Below, in pieces: positions 10,704-26,877 of a stretch of DNA of 54,760 bases. The stretch's first letter is position 1, and the number at the start of each line of letters is the position of its first letter. The DNA is from Bacteroidota bacterium (GTDB lineage Bacteria; Bacteroidota; Bacteroidia; Bacteroidales; UBA932). The DNA is taken from NCBI GenBank assembly GCA_029567375.1, contig JAKQLB010000166.1, forward strand, positions 1 to 54,760. Reading direction: 5' to 3'. The notes beneath the pieces were generated by a model that saw only the letters and a list, made by a program, of their open reading frames with translations, ran no database searches and was not told where the DNA came from. The translations under genes were made by a program, and so were the position numbers.

Positions 10704-11705
10704 TCAGATTTCTTCGATAACTTCTCCGCCCTCTTCCCATGGAGCAACAGTAATTGTGGCATCTATTGCATCAGTGGTGGGTTTGGTTTCGGGATCATTC
10801 GAGCCCAGGTTTCTGATAGTAAGGGAGATGTCATAAGCGGAGTTGCGCATAAACGAAGGAAGTGTGACAGGGTAGTAGTAGATGTTACCCAGGATTTCGG
10901 CTACAACTACCAAACGTGTCTTTCTGGCAGACCAGGTTGTAATGTCGTTGGTGTCTCCGGCAGTTCCATTGGCGTAGCCATAGAAACGAAAATTGGGGGT
11001 GTCGCTGCTTCCCACTGCGATATTCCTTTCAGTGGAATTGCCGAGAAGTGATTCCGGTGCTTCGGATTTTGTGGTGCCATCAATTATAGCACCCGAATTG
11101 CGCCCCATCTTGTTGCTCCAGGTACTGATGGCAGCATTTCCGGCAACATTTTGGTTGGATACAACATTGTTGAGCATAACATATTTGATCTTAATGTTGC
11201 CGTATCCGGCAGAAAGATTGTTGGTCACTCTAACAAGTCTGGCACGTGCCACAAAACGCGAAATAGTGATTTCAACAGATTCCGTCCCCGATGATTTGAC
11301 TTCAACCTGCTTATCTCCGGACATTACGAACCCACTTGCAGATGCATTTTGTGCAAGTGTCAGTGCCTTTGTCTTGAGGGCGCTTTTGGTGACAGTAGCA
11401 GAGAGTGTTTCGCCCAGATTGGCTACAACCCATATTTCGTATGTGCCTGTCTTCACCTTATCGATGGTTTTGCTAAGGGAGGTGCCGTTGTCAAAATAAT
11501 ACTTGCAGACCTCACCATCGAAAATGAAAATCTGGAGATTGTTGACTGTTGCCTCATTGCCTACTACATCGGTAACGGCTTTTGTCTCTATTGCCCCTTT
11601 AACATTGATTGTGAGTTTGCCTTCGCCCGTGCTGTTATCGGGCTCAACAGGGTTGCAGCCTGTAAAAAGTGCTACAATTGTCAGAATGGATAGAATTTTT
11701 TTCAT
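10704..11705 (-). CDS. Fimbrillin-like (FimA/Mfa1-type) lipoprotein
   Basis: A 333-residue putative structural pilin. I chose the ATG at 11705 because it begins a clean lipoprotein signal, MKKILSILTIVALFTGC with Cys17; the frame stays open for 31 more codons upstream but that extension has no signal character. An early IETKAVTD segment (Lys42-Ala43) lies where type V pilins are cut after a basic residue before polymerising; Lys rather than Arg is noteworthy. NLQIFIFDG and a SARKTRLVV block also occur in the neighbouring pilin-like gene. In known systems these lipoproteins reach the cell surface, lose the N-terminal strand and polymerise by strand exchange. Which of the two pilin-like proteins forms the shaft cannot be told. 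Confidence 0.8.
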   Translation of the reverse strand: MKKILSILTIVALFTGCNPVEPDNSTGEGKLTINVKGAIETKAVTDVVGNEATVNNLQIFIFDGEVCKYYFDNGTSLSKTIDKVKTGTYEIWVVANLGETLSATVTKSALKTKALTLAQNASASGFVMSGDKQVEVKSSGTESVEITISRFVARARLVRVTNNLSAGYGNIKIKYVMLNNVVSNQNVAGNAAISTWSNKMGRNSGAIIDGTTKSEAPESLLGNSTERNIAVGSSDTPNFRFYGYANGTAGDTNDITTWSARKTRLVVVAEILGNIYYYPVTLPSFMRNSAYDISLTIRNLGSNDPETKPTTDAIDATITVAPWEEGGEVIEEI

Positions 11706-11715
11706 TGTTTTAAGT

Positions 11716-11745
11716 GTTTGTAAATGTTTGTAATAGTTTGTAAAT
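11716..11745 (-). repeat. Three 10-base tandem repeats in a fimbrillin leader
   Basis: On the plus strand GTTTGTAAAT, GTTTGTAATA, GTTTGTAAAT; on the coding (minus) strand ATTTACAAAC-like units, starting 10 bases before the fimbrillin ATG. The period is close to one DNA helical turn. The core TTACAAA is the same as in the palindromes near 54.1-54.6 kb. It may be a binding array, or a repeat whose copy number alters spacing to the start codon. Confidence 0.75.
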
Positions 11746-11784
11746 TGTGAATAGTTAGTTGCCCGTTTTGAAAACAGGTTGTGG

Positions 11785-12789
11785 CTACATTTCGTCATCT
11801 ATTTCTCCGCCTTCATTCCACTCGCTGATTTTTACTATGGCTTTAATGGTACCGGGTTCAGTAATGGGTTCTTCGGGATGGGAAACCCCTTCGCGTGTGA
11901 TAGTGATATCATAAAAGTAGTAGGTATTGGCAAAAGTGTTTTCCATTGTTACAGGGTAATACCATAATGTTTCTCCCAATGATGCTTCGATCACAAGTCT
12001 GCTCTTTCTTGCACTCCAGAGTTTGCGATCAAAACAATCCGTGCTCGAATTGGGATAGGGGTAAAGAGTCTCGCCGACAACCAGCGAATCTCTGTCCGCC
12101 ATTGGCCGGTCAATCAAGCTGCCGCAGATGAGATTGTCGCACGAACTCTGTTGATACCCCATTTTGTTGTACCACAGGCCATCATCGCCCTGCATTGCGG
12201 TGAGTGCGTAGTTGTTCTTACCTGCAACATTGGTCAAATATATTCGATGGACTTTAAATGGCATTCCGGCAAGATGAGAATTGCCGAATTCCGTTCTGAT
12301 TATACACTCTACTTTGGCCACCATTCTCTGCACGACAATTTCCACTTCCAAATCGGACTCAATCTCAACGGTGGTAGTGCCTATCATCTGAAATGATCCT
12401 CTGCTGTTGTTCCAGAGGTGGCTTTCGCACATAAGTAATTCTTCTGCCGATGAAGGAGCCACCGGCAGTTCGGGAGCGTTGACGAAACAGCAAAATGTGC
12501 AGCGTCCTCCGGGAATGATTACTTCATAATCGCTGCCGCTGCCGGTTATCTTTTGCACGAAAGTCTCATTGCTGTCGAATATGTAAAGTTGTACGCTGTT
12601 GATCCTTGTCTCCTCTTCAGCGGTAACTCCAATAGCGCGTGTGGCTATGGGTGCTCCAGGTTGCGAGTTCTTTAGATAAATAGTAACTCTATGCATTTTA
12701 CCCTCAGCGAAGTGTAAAGGATTGTGGCACGCCCATAATAATGGGAGTAGCGCGACAACTATTATCAGATATTTGAAAATCCGTTTCAT
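11785..12789 (-). CDS. Fimbrillin-like lipoprotein
   Basis: A 334-residue putative pilin or tip subunit. The signal MKRIFKYLIIVVALLPLLWAC places the lipid on Cys21. PIATRAIG (Arg51-Ala52) is a good candidate for the Arg-specific cleavage that activates FimA/Mfa1-type pilins. It is followed by the INSVQLYIFDSN strand, and further on by KLWSARKSRLVIEA, which parallels the next gene's SARKTRLVV. The C-terminus has acidic and Gly-rich turns (EWNEGGEIDDE), like EEGGEVIEE in the neighbour. The start overlaps the stop of the DUF3868 gene by 4 bases (ATGA), so translation is probably coupled. There is a 79-base gap, holding the 10-base repeats, before the next fimbrillin gene. Confidence 0.8.
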   Translation of the reverse strand: MKRIFKYLIIVVALLPLLWACHNPLHFAEGKMHRVTIYLKNSQPGAPIATRAIGVTAEEETRINSVQLYIFDSNETFVQKITGSGSDYEVIIPGGRCTFCCFVNAPELPVAPSSAEELLMCESHLWNNSRGSFQMIGTTTVEIESDLEVEIVVQRMVAKVECIIRTEFGNSHLAGMPFKVHRIYLTNVAGKNNYALTAMQGDDGLWYNKMGYQQSSCDNLICGSLIDRPMADRDSLVVGETLYPYPNSSTDCFDRKLWSARKSRLVIEASLGETLWYYPVTMENTFANTYYFYDITITREGVSHPEEPITEPGTIKAIVKISEWNEGGEIDDEM

Positions 12790-14750
12790 TCAAAGTATCG
12801 GTTAAGTTCATACATCCTTACTAGTGTATATATTTCAGGGTCGAGATTTCCTCTGTGTATGTAGTTGCTATCTTCTCTGCAGGCCTTCAGATAGTACTCT
12901 GCCGCACTCTTGCTTTTTCCGTTGCGTGCCTCCAGCAACGCCATCAGATAATTTCTCCGCGGGGTAGGAGGGAGTTCCGAGAGGAGATCCAGCGCCGATG
13001 CGTTGTAGTCGGCGGCACAATAGGCTACTGCGGTATTAAAGTCCCTGTAGGGTGCTAGCAGGGTGACTGCAAGTTTATAATCTCTGTCGCGCAGAGCCTG
13101 CACTCCTGCCATATAAGTGCTGTCAATGATAGTGGTGTGGATGGTATCCTGAATCATATCTTTACGATGTAGGTGGAATTCAAATCTCACCGTACGCAAC
13201 CTGGGATAGATCTCGTAGGTGAGGTAAGGGTAGAGGTCTTCCATTGAGAGCATTCTTTCGCGTTTGTCGGGGTTTTGTTCTGCCGAGAGCAGGAAATATC
13301 TCTCCTTTTGCAGCGGAGTCATCACAGTATCTGTCATCACCAGCCGGTCAAGAGCACTCCAGTCTTCTGCTACGCTTCGCGAAATGAATTCGACGTTAGC
13401 TCTAGGAGCCCCTTTGTCGGGCTCCGCCGGAACTTTCTCCAAATTGATGGAAAACCCTATCTCACTCTCTGAAGAATCCCGCCAGCTTCTTATAAATCGC
13501 TCAAAATATCGGCTTACCGATGCACTTCTGCGCTTGCTCAATTTTGAATTATATTCCCAGCTTCCTTCAGGGGAAGAACTTGCAGTAACAACTATTGAAT
13601 CCAGGTCAAAATCCCTGTTCTCGAGCAGCAAACGCAGAGTCCGCCGGATACGGGCTATTTCCTGAGCATTCTCCGAAAGGAGTTCCAACACCTCATCGCA
13701 ATCTTTTTCAAATTCTATATAACAGATATCATCAGCTCTGACCTCTCTTGATATTACTTGTGTCAGATATCTCTCACGCTCCTCGGCAAATGCACTAAGA
13801 GAGGAGATATAAAAAGTGAGAGGGGCGCCGGGTTCAATGGTGTATATGCGGTTTTCTTGCTCATATATCTCCCCTTCGAGAACAATCTCCACTTTCCGAA
13901 GACGGGGTCGCGTTTGTACTCTTTGTACATAATTGTAGATAAAATCGCCGCTTGCATTGCGTATTACAGTGTCCAGTCGGAGATGTTCCGTAATTATGGG
14001 AGCCTTGACATAACGGTCGTACATCCTGCCGATATTGGCTTTCTTCCATTCGTTGTGACGAACACGCAGACCATATGTATAGTGTTGCAGGGCATCCTGA
14101 GCCGTGATGCCGTAGTGAGAAAGAAAGAGTTCATCCGAAACATATGTGGAATCGGTTCGATACTTGTAAAGTTCCGGAATATTTCTTTGGATGAATACCT
14201 CCAGTTGGTGCATATCTATGAATTTGGTGCTGTCCTTAATAATGGAGTTGAGAAACCTGCGGTATTGCTGATATCCGCGCAATTGGCTTTTACGGTAGCT
14301 TTCGCCTGTAATGAGAATGCGCTCGAGATTTACGGTGTCTTCAAGGATATGCATTACCGGCATCATTCTCAACTGCCATTTACTGTCCTGAAGCTCTTTC
14401 GGAACAAGCACCTGAAACTCTATCTCCACTTTTCCGTGCCGTTCGGCAACATTGCGAAATCGGGCCGTCACAACGGCTGCCTGCAATTCTTCAGTGGCCA
14501 CCATTTCACCTGTTCCTTCATCCCTCACCGCCCTCATAAGGTGATATGTGTTGCCCTTATCATCTTCAACCACCGAGGTGTCGCGCATGACCTGCGGTAT
14601 GGACATTTCCCGTAATGTACTTCTCTTTTCCTGAGGCAGGGAGATGGATGCGGAGTAGTTGCCAAGTGACTCTATCCTTCCGGAAAGGCTTCCGCAGGAG
14701 GAGAGCGCTACTGCAGCTGTAGTGGCAATTATTGTGATTATGTTTTTCAT
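12786..14750 (-). CDS. DUF3868 lipoprotein with OmpA-like segment
   Basis: A 654-residue predicted lipoprotein from the ATG at 14750, which gives the signal MKNIITIIATTAAVALSSC (Cys19); an in-frame ATG 8 codons earlier lies inside the preceding gene and lacks signal character. DUF3868 proteins accompany DUF3575 proteins in Bacteroidetes fimbrial operons; their exact role is not known. A segment near residues 385-415 (ASSSPEGSWEYNSKLSKRR, then SVSRYF) resembles the OmpA peptidoglycan-binding motif, suggesting a link between fimbria and cell wall. The C-terminal 150 residues look helical and repeat-like (ALRDRDYKLAVTLL, AVAYCAADYNASALDLL), similar to TPR repeats. It starts 7 bases after the DUF3575 gene. 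Confidence 0.75.
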   Translation of the reverse strand: MKNIITIIATTAAVALSSCGSLSGRIESLGNYSASISLPQEKRSTLREMSIPQVMRDTSVVEDDKGNTYHLMRAVRDEGTGEMVATEELQAAVVTARFRNVAERHGKVEIEFQVLVPKELQDSKWQLRMMPVMHILEDTVNLERILITGESYRKSQLRGYQQYRRFLNSIIKDSTKFIDMHQLEVFIQRNIPELYKYRTDSTYVSDELFLSHYGITAQDALQHYTYGLRVRHNEWKKANIGRMYDRYVKAPIITEHLRLDTVIRNASGDFIYNYVQRVQTRPRLRKVEIVLEGEIYEQENRIYTIEPGAPLTFYISSLSAFAEERERYLTQVISREVRADDICYIEFEKDCDEVLELLSENAQEIARIRRTLRLLLENRDFDLDSIVVTASSSPEGSWEYNSKLSKRRSASVSRYFERFIRSWRDSSESEIGFSINLEKVPAEPDKGAPRANVEFISRSVAEDWSALDRLVMTDTVMTPLQKERYFLLSAEQNPDKRERMLSMEDLYPYLTYEIYPRLRTVRFEFHLHRKDMIQDTIHTTIIDSTYMAGVQALRDRDYKLAVTLLAPYRDFNTAVAYCAADYNASALDLLSELPPTPRRNYLMALLEARNGKSKSAAEYYLKACREDSNYIHRGNLDPEIYTLVRMYELNRYFE

Positions 14751-14757
14751 TGTTTCT

Positions 14758-15327
14758 TCAAAAAATGTACACAAGTGAAACTATCAGTTCACCGGGTATG
14801 ACAAACCATCCGTGAGCATTATCTTCCGAAAGAATAGTACCGCAGCGCGGGCAATCGTAACGTGTGTACCATCTGTGGCCACCCCATATGCCTGCTCCAA
14901 ACTCTATGTTGAACTTACTATGGATCATATATGAGTATCCGAAAGCCGCCTCTGCGCCTATTGCAACTCCTTCTTCGGTAATTTGCCGTCCGAAAACTCC
15001 TCCGCAGTTGTATTCGCGTACTTGCGTTCGCATTCCGAACCACCAGGAGGAGAATATATTCCAAGGCCAGTACCTCACTCCGAGTGAAGCCTCGCGTTTG
15101 CGATTCTGAATAAAACCTTTCTCCTGTGAACCATACTGCCAGGGATTGTATCGTACTCCGGCGTTTACCGAGATATGGCGCGAGGCGGCAAACGACACCT
15201 CACCGCTCAAAGTGCCGAAATTGGCCATGTCCGCCAGATTGGCGGAAACAGCAACGCGCTGCGCGCTTACATTCAAGACGGCAAAGAAAATAATAACTAT
15301 TATCGAAATCAATCTAACCATACCCAT
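14758..15327 (-). CDS. DUF3575 outer-membrane-type protein
   Basis: A 189-residue protein with a cleavable signal ending in NVSAQ and short alternating strands ending in VSLVYIF, a C-terminal aromatic residue typical of outer membrane barrels. GVRYNPWQYGS and GVRYWPWNIFSSWW, then NIEFGAGIWGGHRWYTRYDC, are features I recognise from the DUF3575 family. It is first in the fimbrial operon, behind a good Bacteroidetes promoter. CPRCGTIL contains two cysteines that could pair or bind metal. Family proteins are linked to fimbrial operons, but a biochemical function is not established. A start two codons later is equally possible (MGMVRL). Confidence 0.75.
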   Translation of the reverse strand: MGMVRLISIIVIIFFAVLNVSAQRVAVSANLADMANFGTLSGEVSFAASRHISVNAGVRYNPWQYGSQEKGFIQNRKREASLGVRYWPWNIFSSWWFGMRTQVREYNCGGVFGRQITEEGVAIGAEAAFGYSYMIHSKFNIEFGAGIWGGHRWYTRYDCPRCGTILSEDNAHGWFVIPGELIVSLVYIF

Positions 15328-15462: not shown

Positions 15463-15552
15463 ATGATACCTATAATAAAAAGAAATTATCCCGCAATAAT
15501 GGTTCTTATTGCGAGAGCATCACCGGGCTGCACTAAAAAGGAAGGTTTTTAA
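15463..15552 (+). CDS. 29-residue lipoprotein-signal-like peptide, possible relic
   Basis: ATG at 15463 opens 29 codons to TAA at 15550-15552, placed about 28 bases after a good TAnnTTTG promoter. The peptide reads like a lipoprotein signal: basic IKRN, a hydrophobic PAIMVLIA, then RASPGCTKKEG, where Cys follows a lipobox-like region and CTKKE resembles the start of many Bacteroidetes lipoproteins. It then stops, with only 25 bases left before the convergent hydrolase gene. It may be the remaining head of a deleted lipoprotein gene, a true tiny lipopeptide, or chance. I favour a relic; the Arg and Pro before Cys make the lipobox poor. Confidence 0.35.
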   Translation: MIPIIKRNYPAIMVLIARASPGCTKKEGF

Positions 15553-15577: not shown

Positions 15578-16831
15578 TTACGGATACATTGGTTGATTTG
15601 GATAGAGATACTTGTAAAAATCCATAATCATTCTTACAATCATCTTCTCATGCGCTATATCCTCATGAATATATTCTACATCGGCATTTATCTCCTTTAG
15701 ATAAGCGTATAGCTTATCCCCACAAATGGAGGGAACATACAGGTCTTTATGACAGTTGTATAAACGAACTTTGACGTCAGGTCGCCAATCATTCGGTATG
15801 GAGTGCTTTTTCAATGCCTCCATAACCAGTTGACGGTATTGATTTTCTTTATTTCCTAAAAAATCCTCATCGAAATAGTCGTTAAGATCGGTTCCGATAT
15901 AAGATGTAACATCCGGGACCGCTCTGGACCCGTCGCACAATTCGGGAAACTCTTCCAATAGTTTCCCCTTAAAAATCTTGGTAAAATCCAGATTTAAATT
16001 ATCATAGTAGTTTAAAGACCAGAGTATAAAGGGTCCTGAGGCATATTCGGAATAACGGGTTTCAAATAAATCCTCCATACAGAGGTCCGGGTAATAAGGG
16101 CCTCCTCCGACAAAGATATCTTTCACACTGATATCCGACTCCTTATGGATGGAGAGATATCGGGCCAGAGACCAGATAGCGGAACCACCAAGAGAATAGC
16201 CAAACAGAATGATCCTTCTGGGCAGCTTGTAGTGATAGCGATTATAAATAAACTCTCTAGCCGCCAGATAAAAGTCTACACCTGTTTCAGCTAAATTTTC
16301 ATGTTGGATTATGGACATAGGTTGATCTGAATTGAGGCCCATACCAATCCCATCCGGTATCATGCAGACATAATCACCCGCCACGGCTAATAGGGATTCC
16401 ACACTATATCGATTATCGGTACCGCTTTCTCCTTTGCTCTTGAAAAATGGATAGACGAAGATTACGCCTTTAGGCAACCTGTTTTGCGGACAATATAGAA
16501 GCCCGGATGCTACGACGGACTCACCAAGTGGATCTTTAGTATTATATGCAACCCCATGTACGGTATAATCCTTTGAAAGCGCAACATACAGGTTGAGTCT
16601 TTCCAGCAATTGTTGTGCTTGTGCTTCGTTATAACCCGCTTTCAACAACATTTCTTTAGGAGTGGCTCCAAATTCCCTTGAAGCTTTCTGGATAAGCTCT
16701 CCCATCTTCGTATTCTCTTCGAAGAGTTGATGACTGTATTTAACATATTCAATTTCCTCAAAGACCGGCTCTCTTTCACAGCTTAAAAGAGAGAAGGCTA
16801 AAATGAATATGGCTAAAAATGAGTATCTCAT
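15578..16831 (-). CDS. Lipoprotein alpha/beta-hydrolase
   Basis: A 417-residue predicted lipoprotein: the signal FLAIFILAFSLLSC puts the lipid on Cys18. The nucleophile elbow is GYSLGGS with Ser213. A C-terminal KDLYVP segment supplies a likely acid Asp, and EDIAHEKM a likely His, completing a triad. GVIFVYPFFKSKGESGTD and MIPDGIGMGLN resemble secreted lipase or prolyl-oligopeptidase-like hydrolases. The substrate is unknown. It is the last gene of the cassette beginning at 21918, 28 bases after the beta-barrel gene, so it may act on the lipid or lipoprotein handled by that transporter. That link is inference from position only. Confidence 0.75.
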   Translation of the reverse strand: MRYSFLAIFILAFSLLSCEREPVFEEIEYVKYSHQLFEENTKMGELIQKASREFGATPKEMLLKAGYNEAQAQQLLERLNLYVALSKDYTVHGVAYNTKDPLGESVVASGLLYCPQNRLPKGVIFVYPFFKSKGESGTDNRYSVESLLAVAGDYVCMIPDGIGMGLNSDQPMSIIQHENLAETGVDFYLAAREFIYNRYHYKLPRRIILFGYSLGGSAIWSLARYLSIHKESDISVKDIFVGGGPYYPDLCMEDLFETRYSEYASGPFILWSLNYYDNLNLDFTKIFKGKLLEEFPELCDGSRAVPDVTSYIGTDLNDYFDEDFLGNKENQYRQLVMEALKKHSIPNDWRPDVKVRLYNCHKDLYVPSICGDKLYAYLKEINADVEYIHEDIAHEKMIVRMIMDFYKYLYPNQPMYP

Positions 16832-16859
16832 CCCAGTATAAACTATTTATTTTCACACT

Positions 16860-18017
16860 TCAAAAATAATATTTTAAATGTAGTGTGCCTACTATCCCAT
16901 CCATTGAATAAGATTGACCTAAGGTATAATCAAATAGATTAATCATCAAAGATAGGTCAAAATTTTTAAAAACATGGTAGCTCATTTCTGCTCCGACATA
17001 AATTGCTTCCTGATCGTGGAAGTATGCTATTAAGGAGTTTATCGAGCACAATTTGGAAAAAGGATAATAAATTTGTCCTGCAAAGCTCCATCGAGATGTA
17101 GTCAACTCTCTCACAGAGCGACTCGCAGGTAGATATGAAAAGACAATATCCGATATGTCATATGGTTTATTTGTATATAAGACTTCAGTTTGTAAGATAA
17201 GGTTGTTTGAAAATATTTTATCAATACCTAAAGAAAGCTGAACGACGTCAGGCTTATCACTTAACTTTCGGTAGTCATGAAAATATGACCCTTCGAATCT
17301 GATATTCATATTCATCAGCTCAGTAGTAAAGCCTCCTCCTGCAAAGAGATAGTGGCCTTTATATACTCCTCCCAACAATTGATAATCGAATTTTCGGAAA
17401 TTATTCCGGTGTAATAAAGCTGCAGTAGGCGAACCATCTCTGTCGGCAGACAGAGCAATTTCACTGGTAGCAACCTCAGTGTGATAAAATCTGGCTCGCA
17501 CGGCATCACACCCCATTTTCTCAGGGTAAGTGAAATTAATGACAGGTGATGAGTCAAAGATATCATTTGGGTTCCACAATATAGTATTCCCCCAGTTAAT
17601 CCTCTGACGGCCCAGAGTAATTTCAAAATCATCGGTGGCCCACCGAAACGCAAGCCGGTCCAAAGCAATCCCTAACCATTTATCATCCTTGTCTATTAGC
17701 GAATAGGATAGTTTCATCAGATTGTCATCGTCAGTTGAAGTCTCTTTGATGATTTTTAGAATCGTGTTATTTCCAATGGAGAAATTAGTTCGGCTACTGA
17801 TAAATATGTCAAAATTATTATTGATACTCCAATTGAAATTAAATCGTTGAGAGGTCATATTCTGCCATAAAGTCTCATCAAAAGGATCAGGCCTCGTCTC
17901 TCCAAGAAGGGAGTAGTTGTTTATGTGTCCCGTCAGGTTGACTTGAGCATATGCACAGCAAAAACAGAGCTGAAACAAGGAAAATGCTATGATGAGCCTA
18001 CCGAACATATGTTTCAT
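16860..18017 (-). CDS. Beta-barrel outer membrane protein of the Lol-like cassette
   Basis: A 385-residue protein with a signal peptide ending in CCAYAQ (cleavage after about residue 24) and alternating polar/hydrophobic strands up to a terminal LHLKYYF, a typical barrel end. LGRQRINWGNTILWNPNDIFD is a distinctive conserved-looking stretch that recalls the DUF1302/porin-like barrels found near other envelope lipid transporters, but I cannot assign a family firmly. Its ATG overlaps the end of the ATPase gene by 20 bases, strongly suggesting co-translation and a joint function. A second start three codons later (MFGRLII) is possible. Confidence 0.65.
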   Translation of the reverse strand: MKHMFGRLIIAFSLFQLCFCCAYAQVNLTGHINNYSLLGETRPDPFDETLWQNMTSQRFNFNWSINNNFDIFISSRTNFSIGNNTILKIIKETSTDDDNLMKLSYSLIDKDDKWLGIALDRLAFRWATDDFEITLGRQRINWGNTILWNPNDIFDSSPVINFTYPEKMGCDAVRARFYHTEVATSEIALSADRDGSPTAALLHRNNFRKFDYQLLGGVYKGHYLFAGGGFTTELMNMNIRFEGSYFHDYRKLSDKPDVVQLSLGIDKIFSNNLILQTEVLYTNKPYDISDIVFSYLPASRSVRELTTSRWSFAGQIYYPFSKLCSINSLIAYFHDQEAIYVGAEMSYHVFKNFDLSLMINLFDYTLGQSYSMDGIVGTLHLKYYF

Positions 18018-18714
18018 CCTTTGTTATCCTGCCATCTTCAAGGGTTATAAGTCGTCTGGCTTTGTTCATCACACGTGGATCGTGAGTTGAAAAGAGGAAA
18101 GTGATCTTCTCCTTTTCGTTAAGAAGAAGCATGGTGTTAAGCAATGTCTCGGCAGCCTCCGTGTCGAGGTTTGCCGTGGGTTCATCTGCAATAATGAAGA
18201 GAGGTTTGGAGGCTAAAGCACGGGCTACGGCAACCCTTTGTTTTTGACCACCGGAAAGAGTGGATGGACGGGAGCGGGCACGATCTTTCAAGCCAATCAC
18301 TTCCAGCAGTTCGGCTGTTCGCGCAATTCGTTGCTCTTTGTCTGCCCCCTGTAACTCCATTACAAATCCTATATTTTCTTCCACCGTCAAAACCGGAATC
18401 AGATTGAGTAATTGGAAAACAAATCCAATGTTATGCAAACGAAATTTCACAAGCTCTTTATCTTTTAGCAGATTTATATCCATTCCCTTTACAAAAACTT
18501 TTCCGGAAGAGGGAGTGGTAAGTCCTCCGATAAGGTTAAGAAGTGTAGTCTTTCCTGAGCCTGAAGGGCCCACTACTGCAGTAAACTCTCCGCTTGAAAT
18601 AGTCAGGTTGACACGATCAGTTGCTTTAATAACAGACTTGCCGTCAAGAAACGTCTTGGAAAGGTTCTCCGTTCTTACGATAATGGATTCATTATTTTCT
18701 ATTAACTCACTCAT
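17998..18714 (-). CDS. LolD-like ABC transporter ATPase
   Basis: A 238-residue ABC ATPase of the LolD/MacB/FtsE type. Seen: Walker A GPSGSGKTT (49-57), the Q-loop in GFVFQLLNLIPVLTVEEN, the signature LSGGQKQRVAVARAL, Walker B FIIADEPTANLD and the H-loop FSTHD. Family members power FtsX-like permeases that extract lipoproteins, move drugs or regulate wall hydrolases rather than pump through a channel. It lies 14 bases after the second permease and overlaps the barrel gene. The presence of two permeases and a LolA-like carrier favours a Lol-type job over MacB. Confidence 0.92.
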   Translation of the reverse strand: MSELIENNESIIVRTENLSKTFLDGKSVIKATDRVNLTISSGEFTAVVGPSGSGKTTLLNLIGGLTTPSSGKVFVKGMDINLLKDKELVKFRLHNIGFVFQLLNLIPVLTVEENIGFVMELQGADKEQRIARTAELLEVIGLKDRARSRPSTLSGGQKQRVAVARALASKPLFIIADEPTANLDTEAAETLLNTMLLLNEKEKITFLFSTHDPRVMNKARRLITLEDGRITKDETYVR

Positions 18715-18728
18715 GACTATTCTTACAT

Positions 18729-19931
18729 TTACTTCAGAACCTTTTTAATAGGTGAAATGGTTGTAAATATGCCGATAGCCGACACCAGTACAAAGATATG
18801 AACAAAATCTATTTTATCTATCATGGGATAAACAACCGTACCAAAACCATATCCCGAATTGTTATCGAATAAGAAATTGATATTTATACCCGATTTAGAA
18901 GAGAGCGAAACGGCCAGCACACACAATAACAGCCCTATCGAAGTAGCAATAAGTGTGGTAAATAGTGTTTCTATTATAATCATGAGCCCTATGCGGTTGT
19001 CACTCATTCCTACTTTGTTCAGCATTCTGAACTCACCTTTTCTTTCTAAAACCGACATCATCATGAAATTAGCTGTGCTAAGCCCCAAAGCGATGAAGAA
19101 AAGTAGTAGAAAGAGAAAACTTGCTATCCCGTGCCAGGCATCCACCAACTGCATAAGGGGATATACTTCATCCCATTTCTTGATCTCGTATTCAGGTAAT
19201 AGTTGAGATAACTTCTGCTTAACTTTGTCACATTCCCGCAAATCGTTCACGACGATGGCAACTTCATGGACCGCTTCTTCAGGAAGATTCAAATAAGGAA
19301 TCAGGTCGGACTTTCGTACAAAAGCAGTTGTGTTGTCAAATCTTTTGCCATTGGTTTGAAACAATCCTCCTAACCTGAACATTACTCTTTGAATCTCTCC
19401 CGAGGAATCTTGTAAAGAGACAATGATTCTGGACTTTATACCTACATTCAGCCTTTCGGCAGAACGTTTACTTATAATTATGGGTCTTACGATCTCACTT
19501 TCGAAAAAGCTTCCATCTCCACTCTCAATAGTGCTGTAAACGGAAGAGACCTTCATCTCTTCCTCTCTATCGACTCCAATCAAGGTGAGTCCCACGCTTG
19601 TGTTGGCTGTCGATAAAAGAGCATTGGTTTTCAACCGATAAGAAGCATGCTCTACTTCACTTACACCCCCCAAGGCCTGCTGAACCACGCTCTTATCCAT
19701 AAACTCGGTAACTTCATTTGCATCCGAAAATTTATTCGCATGAATCTGCAAATACGAGGTCTGCATATCAATATGTTCCTTATAAACACCGTCCGACCAA
19801 CCATGGGCAATGGAAACCGCAAATGAAGCAGCAAAAACACCAATGGCAATAACAGTTATCAATAAGCTGCTACGGCCTTTCTGCCTGAAAATATTTCTAA
19901 AAGCCATTTTATGGATTATCTTCATTTGCAT
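18729..19931 (-). CDS. FtsX/LolCE-like ABC permease (second)
   Basis: A 400-residue permease: one N-terminal transmembrane segment after a MAFRNIFRQKGRSS basic patch (SLLITVIAIGVFAASFAV), a large periplasmic MacB-type domain, and three C-terminal membrane segments (around LFLLLFFIALGL, IIIETLFTTLIATSIGLLL and the final FVHIFVLVSAIGIFT). This is the LolC/LolE/MacB topology. It overlaps the preceding permease by 23 bases; a start two codons later (MKIIHK) is also possible. The two permeases differ enough in sequence to suggest a LolC-LolE type heterodimer. Confidence 0.85.
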   Translation of the reverse strand: MQMKIIHKMAFRNIFRQKGRSSLLITVIAIGVFAASFAVSIAHGWSDGVYKEHIDMQTSYLQIHANKFSDANEVTEFMDKSVVQQALGGVSEVEHASYRLKTNALLSTANTSVGLTLIGVDREEEMKVSSVYSTIESGDGSFFESEIVRPIIISKRSAERLNVGIKSRIIVSLQDSSGEIQRVMFRLGGLFQTNGKRFDNTTAFVRKSDLIPYLNLPEEAVHEVAIVVNDLRECDKVKQKLSQLLPEYEIKKWDEVYPLMQLVDAWHGIASFLFLLLFFIALGLSTANFMMMSVLERKGEFRMLNKVGMSDNRIGLMIIIETLFTTLIATSIGLLLCVLAVSLSSKSGININFLFDNNSGYGFGTVVYPMIDKIDFVHIFVLVSAIGIFTTISPIKKVLK

Positions 19932-21159
19932 CTCTTTTACTTAATCCCTCATCTACTTTTAAATGTTGAATGAAAGCAACCGGATATGCGGTGAATACCA
20001 GACATATACCTATGACTATCAAAAATTGTTTTATAAACAGAGTGAAATCCAAGGACATATAAAGTCCTGAATATATGGAGAATTGTTTCAATGTTGCAAC
20101 CGCCTCGCCATATAGCGGTATGGGATGAATATTGAAATAGAATACAATAGGCAGAGTTATTATGACGGCGAGAACCACACCCAGGAGAGAAACTATCATA
20201 AGCTCAGAAAATAGACTTTTACTCAGCTTGTTGCGTGACATTCCAATAGCAATCAAGACCGAAAATTCAAGCTTTCTCTCTTTCGTCATCAAGATGATAG
20301 TGCCTAAAATATTTGAACCTACAAGTATGTAGAGAAAAAGCATGATGATGAATCCTATGGCATCGGAAAATCGAAAATAAAATAAATACTCCTCTATAAT
20401 CGACTTCCAATCCCTTATCTCATATTCGTCAGAAGGAAAAATGTTCTGAAGTTGGGATTTTATCAACTCCACTTTATCCAATCTTTCCGACATTATATAG
20501 ATTTCGCTATAGCAATCCTCGGCCTGAAACAGCTCCTGTGCAGCAGATAGTGTTATGAATATGGTGCTTTTGTCAACCGTAGCTACCGGTAACCTGGCAA
20601 TACCTTGAATAGGAATCAATCCAACGGCACTCGTACCATGATACCCCATACCCATTACTGCCAAAGTATCACCAATTCCCAGATCCAACTGTTCTTTCAT
20701 ATTTTCACCTAGGATTACTCCTTTATCATATTTTGAAAACCAGTTTCCTTCGACCATTTCCGAGACCGTCAGGATACGATCCTTTTCAGATTCAGGGTCT
20801 ATGCCAATAATAGCGACCGCTTTGGTTGAGGGCGATGATGAATGAGATATGAGCAGATAGGATTGAAGAACGGGCAAAACGCTCTTCACATAGGGAAGCA
20901 TTGAAATAGAATCCAAAGTTGACGAATCAAAATGCATGATGTCGTCAATGGAACGGGTTTTTGAATAACTATTAGATCTTATCTCAATATGTCCTCCGGA
21001 TAGTTTCAGAATACTATCTGTAGAAGAGTTGAGAATTCCATTTTTTATGGAACCGAAAAGGATGGAAAAAAATGCAGCTAAAAATACGGAAAATATAGTT
21101 AACAGAGCACGAGAGGGATTCCTATGCAAATTCAACCAGGCCAATTTCATCATAGACAA
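19909..21159 (-). CDS. FtsX/LolCE-like ABC permease (first)
   Basis: A 416-residue permease with the same layout as its neighbour: AWLNLHRNPSRALLT and a first membrane segment near residues 17-38, a periplasmic domain of about 230 residues, then three membrane segments (FIIMLFLYILVGSNILGTI; SELMIVSLLGVVLAVIITLPIVF; a last one before AYPVAFIQHLK). RKLEFSVLIAIGMSRNKL is the conserved cytoplasmic coupling region found in FtsX/LolC proteins before the second membrane segment. It starts 3 bases after the LolA-like gene. Expected to work in the inner membrane with the LolD-like ATPase. Confidence 0.87.
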   Translation of the reverse strand: MSMMKLAWLNLHRNPSRALLTIFSVFLAAFFSILFGSIKNGILNSSTDSILKLSGGHIEIRSNSYSKTRSIDDIMHFDSSTLDSISMLPYVKSVLPVLQSYLLISHSSSPSTKAVAIIGIDPESEKDRILTVSEMVEGNWFSKYDKGVILGENMKEQLDLGIGDTLAVMGMGYHGTSAVGLIPIQGIARLPVATVDKSTIFITLSAAQELFQAEDCYSEIYIMSERLDKVELIKSQLQNIFPSDEYEIRDWKSIIEEYLFYFRFSDAIGFIIMLFLYILVGSNILGTIILMTKERKLEFSVLIAIGMSRNKLSKSLFSELMIVSLLGVVLAVIITLPIVFYFNIHPIPLYGEAVATLKQFSIYSGLYMSLDFTLFIKQFLIVIGICLVFTAYPVAFIQHLKVDEGLSKRDANEDNP

Positions 21160-21162
21160 CTA

Positions 21163-21918
21163 TCAGTTAAGGCGTCTCATATTTTGCAGAGAGAAAAAGC
21201 TCTCTTTGAAAGAGGTGTTATAGTCCCAATCCAATATCGTAACGACAGTCTTATGTCCCTCTTTGTCTGCGGGAATAACCTCCAGATGAAGGGGGACATA
21301 GTGTTCTTTGATCTTTTTTATATTGTCGGAAAAATATGTTCTGATCAAAACGTCATCTTCATCATAGTACTCGATCTTGCGTTCCACAAAACTTGTCTTG
21401 CTAATCCAAACAATTACCTTACTCCAGAGTATGATACTTTCCGGATGTGGTGTCAGTAACAATTTGTAACAGAGATCTCCGTTAACTTCCTCTTCTCCCG
21501 ACAACTCGTGGCTAAAATCCGATAAAAAAGAGGAACTGTTCAACATATCATCGACTGTGAAATCGCTTCCCTGCCAGGAAGTGCCGGCAGCGGACGCTGC
21601 TATTTTTACCGTTCTTTCTATCACAGGCTGCCAACTCCACATATTATCACCCCTTTTGAGAAATGCCTGTCCTTTCTCTTTTGTCGGGGAGACTATGAGT
21701 ATTAAGCACATTTCCCTTGTTTTCAGCCAAGTTTTAAGCCCGATGGAACGTTGCCAGGTAGGTCTGTAAATCGTCATGTCGGCCTCTGCTTGGAAATTGC
21801 TGAGGAACCGGTTGTTATAGGCTTTCTCTACAATCTTATATGCGCCGGTCGACTGAGCTGCAACCGGCGGTATCCACAACAGAATCAGAGTTATTATTTG
21901 AATTATTCTCAAAATCAT
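21163..21918 (-). CDS. LolA-like outer membrane lipoprotein-sorting protein
   Basis: A 251-residue secreted protein from the ATG at 21918, giving a signal MILRIIQIITLILLWIPPVAAQ cleaved near residue 21; an earlier in-frame ATG adds 10 residues without signal character. The mature part has the LolA_like layout: FQAEADMTIYRPTW, a KGQAFLKRGDNMWSWQP strand pair, GSDFTVDDML, and a final DWDYNTSFKESFFSLQNMRRL. Such proteins form an open barrel that carries acyl chains across the periplasm. As first gene of the cassette it probably serves the downstream ABC complex, as a private carrier rather than the cell's housekeeping LolA. Substrate unknown. Confidence 0.85.
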   Translation of the reverse strand: MILRIIQIITLILLWIPPVAAQSTGAYKIVEKAYNNRFLSNFQAEADMTIYRPTWQRSIGLKTWLKTREMCLILIVSPTKEKGQAFLKRGDNMWSWQPVIERTVKIAASAAGTSWQGSDFTVDDMLNSSSFLSDFSHELSGEEEVNGDLCYKLLLTPHPESIILWSKVIVWISKTSFVERKIEYYDEDDVLIRTYFSDNIKKIKEHYVPLHLEVIPADKEGHKTVVTILDWDYNTSFKESFFSLQNMRRLN

Positions 21919-22010: not shown

Positions 22011-22050
22011 ACACCGACTTTTCCTATCGATTAATAGGGAAAGTCAGTGT
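22011..22050 (-). terminator. Hairpin terminator after the small barrel gene
   Basis: Left arm 22011-22027, loop CGATTA at 22028-22033, right arm 22034-22050. Twelve inner pairs (one G-T type) plus four outer pairs around a single mismatch. It sits 32-71 bases beyond the minus-strand stop at 22082. No strong T-run follows, so termination or mRNA 3'-end protection is likely but not certain. Confidence 0.6.
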
Positions 22051-23529: not shown

Positions 23530-26500
23530 TTATTGCAATGTGATCAATCCGGAGAGCGTACCGGTCACGGTAGTGCTCTGCAGACCGTCGTCAGTAGTAT
23601 ATGAAGCTGTCACGGTCACATCGGTGATGGTATATTCTTGTTCATCATAGAGCTGGCTATAGGAGACGGTATGGCCACTTATTACCCTTGTGCCACCATC
23701 GGAGTGTCTTATGGTGATTGTCCAGACGGAAGATGAGGTGCACTTTGCAGTGCTCTCGTCGCTATATATGGCCGTAGCTGTAAATGAGATGGATTGTCCC
23801 AAAGCAAGAGTCACTCCCGACGGGGAAGTAAAATTGTTGTCTGATGGCGTGATTTGTACTTCAACCGGATATTTTGGTCTGACATTTAAAATCTTCGTAT
23901 CAGTAACGGTGACTCCGCCGAAGGTATAGGAAACTTTGACAATGACAGGCTTATAAGAATCACTATTGTTGGCTGCTTCTATTGTGTTGCCAATGAGATT
24001 TGCATAGGAGACATTTTCTCCTTCAAGTGAGTAGGTGACTCCGGTTGAGCCAAATGTTTCGGTACTTCCATCACTGTATGTTACCATAGCCGAAAGGACA
24101 CATGGGCTATCACCCTGAGCGATGGTATATCTATTCATAAACAAGACAATCGCCGATGCTGCAACTCCCTTTTTCCCCTGGATTGTAACAACGACATCAT
24201 CCGTCAAAACGGTTCCACCGTATGAGAATGTACCCCTGATTATGACATTTCTGTCAGTGGATTCGCTGTTGTTTCCTCTGAGAGCACCCTCTTCTACCTG
24301 ATAGTTAAATACATATTCCTCTCCCGAGGTAATAGTGTAGCTGATATCGGTTTCATTCGTTACCGAGCCATCGCTCCATGTAACATTGGCAGAGAGCAGA
24401 CTTGTCCCGTTCCACTCTATGGTTGAAGGGGATGCCGAGATTAAAAGTGACGTAGGACTCTTCGTCACTCCTTCGACTGTGAGATTTGCCGTAGCACTCA
24501 TTCCGGAAAATGTGGCTGTGATTGTGGTTGTCTTTATGAAAGAAGTGGTGTTGCATCCTGTCGCCGTACCGTTGTTTACAGTAGCTGCATCGGTATCGGA
24601 ACTGCTCCAGGCACAGAGTGATGTGACCTCCGTTGTGGTTCCGTCCGAGTATGTTGCAGTTGCGATAAATGATTTGCTGCCATTTGCCGTGATGGTGGCA
24701 GAGGCGGGGGAGAGTGTAAGGGATGTAATAGTGGGAGCGCTTTGAGGTGTTACGTCCACATATGTATAATCCCTCTCCCCGCTGTGTGTAGCCTTAATCA
24801 TCGCAACGCCCGTAGCCAGGGTAGTGACCTCCCCTGCGGAAACTGTTGCTATATTGGGCGTGAGGCTGACCCATTGGGCAGCATGAGTTACGTCAGAAGT
24901 GGAGGAATCCATTTCATCTCCGTCGATAAAGGTTTTAGTGGTCAGTGTTGCTGTAATTTGAAAAGATGTGCCGACAGTCACTGACGCATAGGTGGGGTCA
25001 AGGTTGAGTTCATAAGAGTGACTCGTATAACCATTACGATAACATACTATATTGGCAGAACGGCTTTTCCCGAGGTAATGAGCAGTTATCGTTACATCGA
25101 CAAAATCCTCGCTTCCGGAATAGATGTTTCTCACGATGGCAGAGGAGGAGAGGAGGGCCGCATCCGGTCTGTTATTATTCCAGTCACATACATTTGTAAT
25201 GTCACTTGTTGAGCCATCAGACCATACTGCTGTTACTTTCAGCTGCACCCTTTTTCTATAGAATAGTGATGTATCGCTTGGTCTCACGATAATATCTGTT
25301 ACGCTCACCGAAGGCACTACATTGATTTGCAGGATACTGCTCTTTTTCATATCAAGCGTGCCGGCAGTCAGGGTAGCACTTATCGGCGATATGACATTTG
25401 AGATGCTGCTGATGATGACCCTCTCTCCCTCACGGGAATAACTCAGATACCCGTTTTCAAAGAACTCACTGCCCTTCAGTATTACAGGTAGTCCGGCAGG
25501 GGAGAGCACAAGGCAGACTGTGTCTTGTGCCATTGAGACAAGATTCAGAACAAGCGGGTCCCAGCCGATACTTCTGTTATCCACCACAATTCCGGGGTCC
25601 ACTTTCCAGGATTCTGTGGAAATGGAATTGTCCGAGGGAAGGAAAGAGAGTGTTTGAATTGTATTTCGCACAATGTCAAATGAAGAGGTGTTGTCTGCCC
25701 CAAGATAGAACCTGAAGGTCATCTTGTCAGAATTAAGTCCCGCTGAAACGCCCCCTCCAATATATCTGCCCTCGATTTCGATGAATGTGCAGAGATTTTT
25801 GGCAGAAGGAATGTTATCTGGAATTTTGGCCCACGGGTCTCTGTTGTCCGGCAGAAGATTTCCCTGAAGATTTTCATACATATAAAATGAGACAGCGGAT
25901 CCTGCATTGAGGCGTTGTAGATCCGATATTGTGGATATATCACCATCGAGAGTTGCAGTTGCAGGCCTTGTGGAAAATGGAAATACGTCGGCAGCGGAGT
26001 TGCGAAGCCTGACTCCGGTTACCTCGAAACTTCCTTCCAGATTGCTGCGGTCTATCACAAGGTCATATCTTGCAACAAGGCGCACAAACTCCATAGTGTA
26101 ACTATTATTCCCTTGTGCAACTGTAAGAGTTCCGGTGTGAGCCAAAGGGAAGCCCCCTGAAGTTATTCCTGCCAGGCCGGGCCACCCGATTGAAACTTCT
26201 CTCATCTCGCTTTCCAATGGAGGTGGAGTGAATTCTCCTACATTGGCTAGAGCATATACCATATAATTCTCTCCCACAGGTAAATCAATAGATATCTCTT
26301 GTCCGCCGGAAAAGTTGTACGGCCCGACGAGTCTTCCCATATTGTCGTAAAGATAGATACCTATAGTTATTATGGCGGAGTCGGCTACATCTATACTACT
26401 CTTTGTGGCTATTTCATCCTTCACGACAGAGAGGAATCTCACATTTCCGGTGATCTTATTGCTCTCTGAATCTTCCCGACATCCGGCCGCAATAAGGGCT

Positions 26501-26538
26501 GCCGTCAGTACGAATAACATTATCTTCAGTGTTTTCAT
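23530..26538 (-). CDS. Large Ig-like (Big_2-type) surface lipoprotein, DUF4906-like
   Basis: A 1002-residue predicted lipoprotein from the ATG at 26538, signal MKTLKIMLFVLTAALIAAGC with Cys20; the frame extends 16 codons further but without signal character. The first ~300 residues resemble fimbrillin/DUF4906-type N-domains (ATKSSIDVADSA, then ITIGIYLYDNMGRLV). The rest is a string of bacterial Ig-like repeats, each with a LxLSPASATIT-type strand, TATYSDGTTTEVT and SSSDTDAATV blocks; at least six can be seen. Such lipoproteins are usually surface adhesins or fimbria-associated subunits. No fimbrial operon adjoins it. The stop is 2 bases from the convergent DUF2202 gene. Confidence 0.7.
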   Translation of the reverse strand: MKTLKIMLFVLTAALIAAGCREDSESNKITGNVRFLSVVKDEIATKSSIDVADSAIITIGIYLYDNMGRLVGPYNFSGGQEISIDLPVGENYMVYALANVGEFTPPPLESEMREVSIGWPGLAGITSGGFPLAHTGTLTVAQGNNSYTMEFVRLVARYDLVIDRSNLEGSFEVTGVRLRNSAADVFPFSTRPATATLDGDISTISDLQRLNAGSAVSFYMYENLQGNLLPDNRDPWAKIPDNIPSAKNLCTFIEIEGRYIGGGVSAGLNSDKMTFRFYLGADNTSSFDIVRNTIQTLSFLPSDNSISTESWKVDPGIVVDNRSIGWDPLVLNLVSMAQDTVCLVLSPAGLPVILKGSEFFENGYLSYSREGERVIISSISNVISPISATLTAGTLDMKKSSILQINVVPSVSVTDIIVRPSDTSLFYRKRVQLKVTAVWSDGSTSDITNVCDWNNNRPDAALLSSSAIVRNIYSGSEDFVDVTITAHYLGKSRSANIVCYRNGYTSHSYELNLDPTYASVTVGTSFQITATLTTKTFIDGDEMDSSTSDVTHAAQWVSLTPNIATVSAGEVTTLATGVAMIKATHSGERDYTYVDVTPQSAPTITSLTLSPASATITANGSKSFIATATYSDGTTTEVTSLCAWSSSDTDAATVNNGTATGCNTTSFIKTTTITATFSGMSATANLTVEGVTKSPTSLLISASPSTIEWNGTSLLSANVTWSDGSVTNETDISYTITSGEEYVFNYQVEEGALRGNNSESTDRNVIIRGTFSYGGTVLTDDVVVTIQGKKGVAASAIVLFMNRYTIAQGDSPCVLSAMVTYSDGSTETFGSTGVTYSLEGENVSYANLIGNTIEAANNSDSYKPVIVKVSYTFGGVTVTDTKILNVRPKYPVEVQITPSDNNFTSPSGVTLALGQSISFTATAIYSDESTAKCTSSSVWTITIRHSDGGTRVISGHTVSYSQLYDEQEYTITDVTVTASYTTDDGLQSTTVTGTLSGLITLQ

Positions 26539-26877
26539 TGCAAATGTTTTTATTCGTTTATTTGTGAGCGTAAATATGGAAAACATTTACCAAATAATAA
26601 AATACACTGACAAATCTTGCTCTATCAATTCACCCTTAGAGGCTATTGTGAAGGGTTGCCGGAAAACCGAGAAATTATTTCTCCATTTTCAAAATAAGCT
26701 ATTTTTACCTCTAAAATCTCTCAATAACTTCAAGGGCATTACATTGCTTTTTTCAGAAAATGATACGGAAACCGACAATCGCAAAAAATTCCCCAAAAAG
26801 CCTTTCGGGAGGTTGTTATATCTGTTCAATGCTTTTCTTTGTACAAAAACCCATTGGGATTAACAAACAGACCACAT
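26539..26877. other. Noncoding stretch between divergent genes
   Basis: About 340 bases with no supported gene. Presumed to hold the promoters of the large lipoprotein (minus) and of the small unknown protein (plus), but no exact TAnnTTTG element was found in the right place. No convincing hairpin or RNA gene was recognised. Confidence 0.5.

Follow-up and report, generated by a model that had tools for sequence, protein, structure and literature searches.

The closest described relatives of the six-gene cassette considered here, which lies in a 54,760-nucleotide stretch of DNA (the window; contig JAKQLB010000166.1 of assembly GCA_029567375.1, Bacteroidota bacterium, Bacteroidales, UBA932), are transport systems with a LolA-type periplasmic carrier. 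AmeABCD of Castellaniella defragrans comprises a DUF1302 protein, a LolA-superfamily DUF1329 carrier, a HAE3 pump of the resistance-nodulation-division (RND) type and a COG4447 protein; a deletion mutant tolerated monoterpenes less well and accumulated more Nile Red, which was interpreted as export, and the structures 4Z48, 3BK5 and 3BUU were named in the same report as LolA-superfamily members of mostly unknown function (PMC6394551). A DUF1302/DUF1329 pair, for which a complex was predicted, is required for growth of P. putida on Tween20 (PMC10866462). Operons of a TetR regulator, an MMPL pump and an 'outer membrane lipoprotein-sorting protein' are strongly upregulated during iron limitation in Porphyromonas and Prevotella, and haem limitation also raises the Porphyromonas operon (PMC10434189, PMC10470040). 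In Thalassolituus, an MMPL/LolA-like protein and an adjacent predicted porin rise on long alkanes (PMC6304351). Further private carriers are found in Borrelia BBJ23-29, a LolA/ATP-binding cassette (ABC)/barrel cluster of unknown cargo (PMC13078400), and in the flexirubin locus, where a role in moving pigment or lipoproteins is suspected for LolA2/LolB2 (PMC11885536). No account of a five-gene ABC cassette as reported below was found in the Creative Commons-licensed text of PubMed Central, a result that applies to this text rather than to print at large.

The cassette encodes a LolA_like carrier, two FtsX/MacB-type permeases, an ABC ATPase, a predicted outer-membrane barrel and an alpha/beta-hydrolase lipoprotein (Table 1). 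On balance, its five-gene core probably represents an ABC-powered trans-envelope exporter of a hydrophobic or lipid-like molecule, to which the hydrolase is a lineage-specific addition. Judged by analogy, the best reading appears to be an ABC counterpart of the exporters combining an RND or MMPL engine with a LolA-fold carrier and a DUF1302 barrel, rather than a lipoprotein-sorting apparatus. With AmeABCD, of hydrophobic cargo, it shares the clustering of a LolA-superfamily periplasmic protein and a DUF1302-related outer-membrane protein with one inner-membrane engine. The engine, however, is of RND type and the carrier a DUF1329 protein in AmeABCD, as opposed to FtsX permeases plus ATPase and a PF17131 carrier here; AmeABCD also has a fourth periplasmic protein that is lacking in the cassette, and no hydrolase is mentioned for it in the accessible text. 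TetR-MMPL-LolA_like-barrel operons of Bacteroidota possess a PF17131 carrier and a homologous barrel, often with TetR upstream, but employ an MMPL pump in place of the two permeases and the ATPase, and those in print are regulated by iron or haem; P. gingivalis PG1178-PG1181 is likened to them by its published description, not by sequence. Likewise by published description, Borrelia BBJ23-29 shares the private LolA-like carrier, the type VII ABC transporter and a barrel, but has one homodimeric permease, an Omp85 barrel and tetratricopeptide repeat (TPR) proteins. LolA2/LolB2 resemble the cassette in devoting a second LolA-type carrier to a special pathway, but belong to a biosynthetic locus with LolB2 as partner, and a barrel is not mentioned in the accessible text. 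Two FtsX-type permeases, a LolD-like ATPase and a LolA-type carrier are shared with LolABCDE, whereas the cassette has its own permease group, a carrier of PF17131 instead of PF03548 and a barrel in place of LolB. Unlike in MacAB-TolC, the ATPase is separate from the permeases, and these do not group with E. coli MacB; among the nine genes scanned, no family of a fused ATPase-permease, a membrane fusion protein or TolC was found. The designation 'Lol-like' in the first-pass annotation over-describes the system, as permeases and ATPase score below the cut-offs of lolCE and LolD and the studied counterparts have been linked to hydrophobic small molecules instead of lipoproteins (PMC6394551, PMC10866462).

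All six genes are located on the minus strand and tightly packed. Carrier and permease 1 genes are spaced by 3 bases, or 9 if the ATG start is used, the permease genes overlap by 23 bases, a 14-base gap precedes the ATPase gene, the latter overlaps the barrel gene by 20 bases, and the hydrolase gene follows after 28 bases. This co-directional arrangement, as noted in the first-pass annotation, was confirmed by the coordinates, and it exceeds chance, the order of the first five genes being repeated throughout the phylum. Only Bacteroidota genomes, mostly drafts, were searched for the cassette; the host genome is itself a draft (3.38 Mb, 400 contigs, 89% completeness). In a draw of 395 genomes from the phylum, PF17131 matched in 215 (over the cut-off in 156; the best 150 carrier matches were considered) and the barrel profile A1 in 110, of which 87 matches were strong (E<=1.2e-67, one per genome). 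Among the matches listed, 80 of these 87 strong barrels have a LolA_like gene within 12 kb, always upstream and on the same strand, and the interval amounts to 3.1-4.6 kb in 76 of the 80, i.e., space for two permeases and an ATPase. In a second draw from the order, the barrel matched at E<=1e-3 in 121 of 247 genomes (E<=9.3e-74 in 97), so that a rarity of the cassette within the order is ruled out. All five components (carrier, the two types of permease, ATPase and barrel) were present in 20 of 20 order-level loci, most of which had been selected among the top-ranking barrel matches. The dedicated inner-to-outer-membrane route from a LolA-type carrier to its own barrel, as originally proposed, is likely, and the five genes co-occur widely; overall, the earlier interpretation is partly supported.

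Departures among the 20 loci comprise an ATPase gene ahead of the permease genes (L112), an additional open reading frame before the barrel gene (L109), an additional permease (L118, order P1-P1-P2) and a second permease pair 3' of the barrel (L121). Together with a P1-P2-P1-P2 arrangement in L081, the extra permease genes hint that more than one ABC transporter may feed one carrier and barrel. Permease 1 measures about 470-480 residues instead of the usual ~405 in L107, L113, L116, L125 and L126, as does permease 2 in L113, L116 and L126, suggestive of a ~70-residue insertion in some lineages. Immediately upstream of the 20 loci, a TetR-looking gene was recognized by eye in 12 and a MarR-like gene in 2; L108 and L112, one of each type, are those verified by Pfam. 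TetR/MarR regulators often sense small hydrophobic ligands.

Close relatives (L040-L043) retain the region, with the L043 contig ending within the barrel gene. Beyond these, the cassette of the window is divergent: in a sample of 25 cassettes (close relatives excluded; mean identity of each to the remainder), its carrier, permease 1 and permease 2 have the lowest values (36.8, 29.2 and 28.1%, versus 45.7, 38.6 and 37.4% for the other cassettes among themselves), and for ATPase and barrel two other cassettes are lower. The same-family genome G615 harbours a cassette without the hydrolase, the permeases of which pair with those of L113 (100/100) and not with those of the window, so that transfer and fast evolution are indistinguishable.

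Permease 1 matches PF02687 (FtsX; 1.4e-12) and PF12704 (MacB_PCD; 1.9e-12), and permease 2 matches PF02687 (1e-13), MacB_PCD and, by phmmer, LolE 7arh (6.7e-9). With TIGR02212 (lolCE; cut-off 362.45 bits), they score 102.1-102.7 and 80.4-81.1 bits, respectively, and neither passes. Two further LolCE-like permeases of the same genome, C11 (190.3 bits; adjoining an RbfA-like gene recognized by eye) and C180 (128.7 bits), also score below this cut-off, which is therefore strict for the phylum; their presence rules out the cassette pair as the only LolCE-like pair of the genome, a possibility the first-pass annotation had raised against itself. The ATPase matches PF00005 (2.2e-35) and carries Walker A (GPSGSGKT), signature (LSGGQ) and H-loop His motifs by eye; its best NCBIfam model is LolD (5e-63; 212.6 bits, short of the cut-off of 307.75). 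A maximum likelihood tree was computed for 46 permeases, in which all 38 cassette sequences separate together from the 8 others (99/96). The 19 cassette subunit-1 sequences form a clade (100/99), and those of subunit 2 are not resolved as a single clade. E. coli LolC and LolE group with C11 and C180 (100/99), and MacB with C65, C17 and C353 (100/99); the long branches of C11, C180, C353, LolC and MacB make exact places in the tree unsure. The phylogeny suggested at the outset hence sets the cassette permeases apart from both the LolC/LolE and the MacB groups, and since they are distinct from the LolCE-like permeases of their own genome, which presumably serve lipoproteins, the cassette cannot simply be equated with the housekeeping Lol system.

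The carrier belongs to PF17131 (1.4e-49; 168.7 bits, gathering cut-off 30), the only family matched at E<=1; PF03548 (LolA) was not matched at this threshold. It is the single PF17131 match of the genome, in which a weak PF03548 match is located on C65 (20.3 bits, cut-off 23.6). Its solved relatives are 9tp6, 3buu, 4z48 and 3bk5, the last three of which are also the structures named in the AmeABCD report. For carrier, barrel and hydrolase, no NCBIfam model was found at E<=0.1, and barrel and hydrolase reach no curated Pfam or NCBIfam cut-off.

The barrel displays a signal peptide and a C-terminal F by eye. The alignment A1, built from its family, was compared by hhalign with A5, built from the barrels of seven MMPL loci, yielding 99.9% probability (E 4e-33, 316 columns), as against 3.9%, confined to the signal peptide, for a control alignment of one unrelated small outer-membrane protein. 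Two of three scanned MMPL-type barrels pass DUF1302 (PF06980; L053, 41.0 bits; L080, 45.7 bits; cut-off 23.2), and DUF1302 matches at E<=1 occur in 4 of 18 members of the ABC-type barrel family (best 5.5e-4). By profile homology, the barrel of the window is thus assigned to the DUF1302 superfamily in the wider sense; it is a member of a broad family and not private to the locus, as had been supposed. A sequence search of the PDB returned no match to the barrel, and two Cas12i matches of its profile at E 0.41 were treated as chance.

Carrier and barrel relatives also adjoin MMPL pumps. Seventy carrier matches (among those listed) without a strong barrel within 12 kb were classed by same-strand neighbours within 6.5 kb, several of these neighbourhoods being truncated by contig ends. 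An MMPL gene only was found in 23 (19 with a barrel), an FtsX permease only in 20 (13 with a barrel) and both in 1. Seven of the 23 MMPL loci had served to build the MMPL model and one barrel model of two, so that their own matches are expected by design. Pfam verified four of the MMPL proteins (E<=7.9e-39). Of the 40 barrel matches below the strong class, some of which are gene pieces, 22 have a listed carrier match within 12 kb and 18 do not. These classes and the A1/A5 homology indicate that two unrelated engines are combined with members of the same carrier family and the same barrel superfamily. More tentatively, the PF17131 carrier and the DUF1302-related barrel may constitute an exchangeable exit module placed on either a proton-driven MMPL or an ATP-driven ABC engine. 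In this genus, the ABC version, with no TetR/MarR gene beside it, would have diverged fast and recruited an outer-membrane lipase, giving a lipase-coupled exporter that clears away or supplies acyl products at the cell surface. In L135-L140, PF17131 genes of a seemingly distinct subfamily stand alone: no ABC permease, MMPL or barrel gene was found on their strand within 6.5 kb.

In the proposed mechanism, the two FtsX-type permeases and the ATPase would assemble into a MacB/Lol-type (type VII) transporter loading the carrier with a hydrophobic or lipid-like compound withdrawn from the inner membrane or the periplasm. The LolA_like carrier would shield the cargo while crossing the periplasm and pass it to the DUF1302-related barrel for release to the outer-membrane surface or outside. 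The hydrolase, added in this genus as a putative outer-membrane lipoprotein, would probably act on an ester at the exit or close to it, this ester being the cargo itself or the source of it. A hydrophobic small molecule is favoured as cargo because AmeABCD and the P. putida DUF1302/DUF1329 pair have been linked to such compounds. If true, the cassette would represent a widespread outward route across the Bacteroidota envelope that was found uncharacterised in the literature searched. It suggests LolA-fold carriers and DUF1302-type barrels as a general exit for greasy molecules, driven by RND or ABC engines, and cautions against labelling PF17131 genes and cassette permeases as lipoprotein sorting. 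The hydrolase variant of the present lineage places the question of the cargo within direct experimental reach.

Several observations weigh against an exporter of this kind. Neither engine was found in 26 of the 70 classed neighbourhoods (25 without a barrel), so that a LolA_like gene alone does not imply a cassette system. Seven of the 87 strong barrels have no nearby carrier among the matches listed: the carrier contig (L073) of G104 breaks inside the ATPase gene and the barrel opens another contig, that of G275 stops 0.4 kb past the carrier gene, the carriers of G123 and G305 reside on ~4 kb contigs and the barrel of G200 is split across two contigs; in G389 and G196, carrier plus permeases and barrel are on separate contigs with no explanatory contig end seen. 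The barrel of the window stays below the DUF1302 cut-off (15.3 bits versus 23.2), and the third MMPL-type barrel scanned (L141) has no DUF1302 match. AlphaFold2 models of the carrier (predicted local distance difference test, pLDDT, 40.2) and of the barrel (window and four close relatives; pLDDT 29.8) were too low in confidence for fold searches, and the barrel assignment consequently rests on homology. TetR/MarR families were not found among the neighbours in the window scanned with Pfam. The closest solved permeases are LolF and LolE, and MacB/Lol permeases also transport lipoproteins. Finally, the Tween20 requirement in P. putida would by analogy also fit uptake (PMC10866462), as would the alkane-induced Thalassolituus MMPL/LolA-like protein with its adjacent predicted porin (PMC6304351) and the MMPL-carrier operons strongly raised in Porphyromonas when iron or haem is limiting and in Prevotella when iron is (PMC10434189, PMC10470040).

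The hydrolase carries an N-terminal lipobox by eye (LLSC-EREP); the stretch behind the lipid Cys (C-EREPVFEE) is mildly acidic and, as inspected by eye, has no clear fit to the acid-rich surface export motifs of Bacteroidota lipoproteins. By phmmer, it is related to 4ezi (6.6e-17; esterase 3h2g only 0.13). S213 (in GYSxG), D363 and H394, a candidate catalytic triad, do not vary among the five aligned copies. The gene could be a mere neighbour, an esterase sharing the transcript and functionally unlinked, which is a serious possibility if not the favoured one and is compatible with the export function of the core. It accords with the absence of profile matches beside the cassette in all 20 order loci and with the order draw, in which 24 of 247 genomes, the host included, have a hydrolase match; of the others, 10 combine a hydrolase relative with a listed barrel (E<=1.5e-93), and in none of these do the two share a contig (by eye; fragmented drafts). 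On the other hand, all three relatives with a sufficiently long contig keep the gene 3' of the barrel (L040, L041 with two copies, L042), the candidate triad is intact in every copy, and a terminator-like hairpin is situated behind it. As the profile finds it only in L040-L042 among a set of 42 loci and in none of the order loci, the hydrolase is a lineage-specific recruit; a standing member of the cassette, as implied by its earlier inclusion in the system, is ruled out by the 20 wider loci.

For the core itself, export of a hydrophobic molecule was weighed against a private lipoprotein route, in which the ABC pair extracts a few lipoproteins, the carrier conveys them and the barrel flips them to the surface, the hydrolase possibly being cargo. 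The Lol affinities of permeases and ATPase and the hydrolase lipoprotein encoded 3' of the barrel (two copies in L041) agree with such a route. It is nonetheless improbable, given that the lipoprotein is not conserved in the wider loci, that no conserved lipoprotein partner was found, though without a systematic search for one, that the cassette permeases fall outside the LolC/LolE group, and that carrier family and barrel kin also adjoin MMPL pumps, the known cargoes of which are mostly lipids and hydrophobes. Uptake or retrograde transport, with the barrel admitting a hydrophobe or removing surplus lipid, the carrier moving it inward and the hydrolase first freeing an acyl part, is more doubtful still despite the induction and growth phenotypes listed above, since the known MacB/Lol-type ABC transporters work outward, relatives have TetR/MarR-like regulators upstream as is the case for efflux pumps, and AmeABCD showed export.

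Table 1 Features of the cassette and its flanks in the window
Feature	Position	Strand	Remarks
LolA_like periplasmic carrier (PF17131)	21163..21918	-	ATG start 21918; alternative TTG 21948; signal peptide by eye
FtsX/MacB-type permease subunit 1 (LolC/E-like)	19909..21153	-	alternative TTG start 21159
FtsX/MacB-type permease subunit 2	18729..19931	-	
ABC ATPase	17998..18714	-	PF00005; Walker A, signature, H-loop by eye
Predicted outer-membrane barrel	16860..18017	-	conserved GRQRINWG..WNPND motif
Alpha/beta-hydrolase lipoprotein	15578..16831	-	lipobox LLSC by eye
Terminator-like hairpin, 3' of hydrolase stop	15489..15516	-	11 pairs, T-rich tail; pattern match only
12-pair hairpin between upstream outer-membrane protein gene and carrier gene	22016..22045	.	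T tail on + strand; pattern match only

The two hairpins flanking the cassette are compatible with a single six-gene transcript; they are pattern matches, and the scan found 10 terminator-like sites in the region versus 5.1 expected by chance. On its 3' side (10704-15327), the cassette is followed by a Bacteroidales fimbrial-type locus coding for a DUF3575 protein, a weakly OmpA-like protein, an Mfa2-type anchor (8.5e-6) and a FimA-type protein (2.4e-6). Elsewhere in the genome, contig C206 (L068) harbours genes near an FtsX permease, including phage-tail-like proteins, that differ from the remaining genome by eye and possibly represents a foreign contig in the draft. Upstream of the cassette (23530-26586), a lipoprotein-like protein of 1018 residues with repeated immunoglobulin-like stretches by eye is encoded; DUF4906 (2.5e-9) is its sole Pfam match, and a similarly long gene occupies this place in L040-L043.

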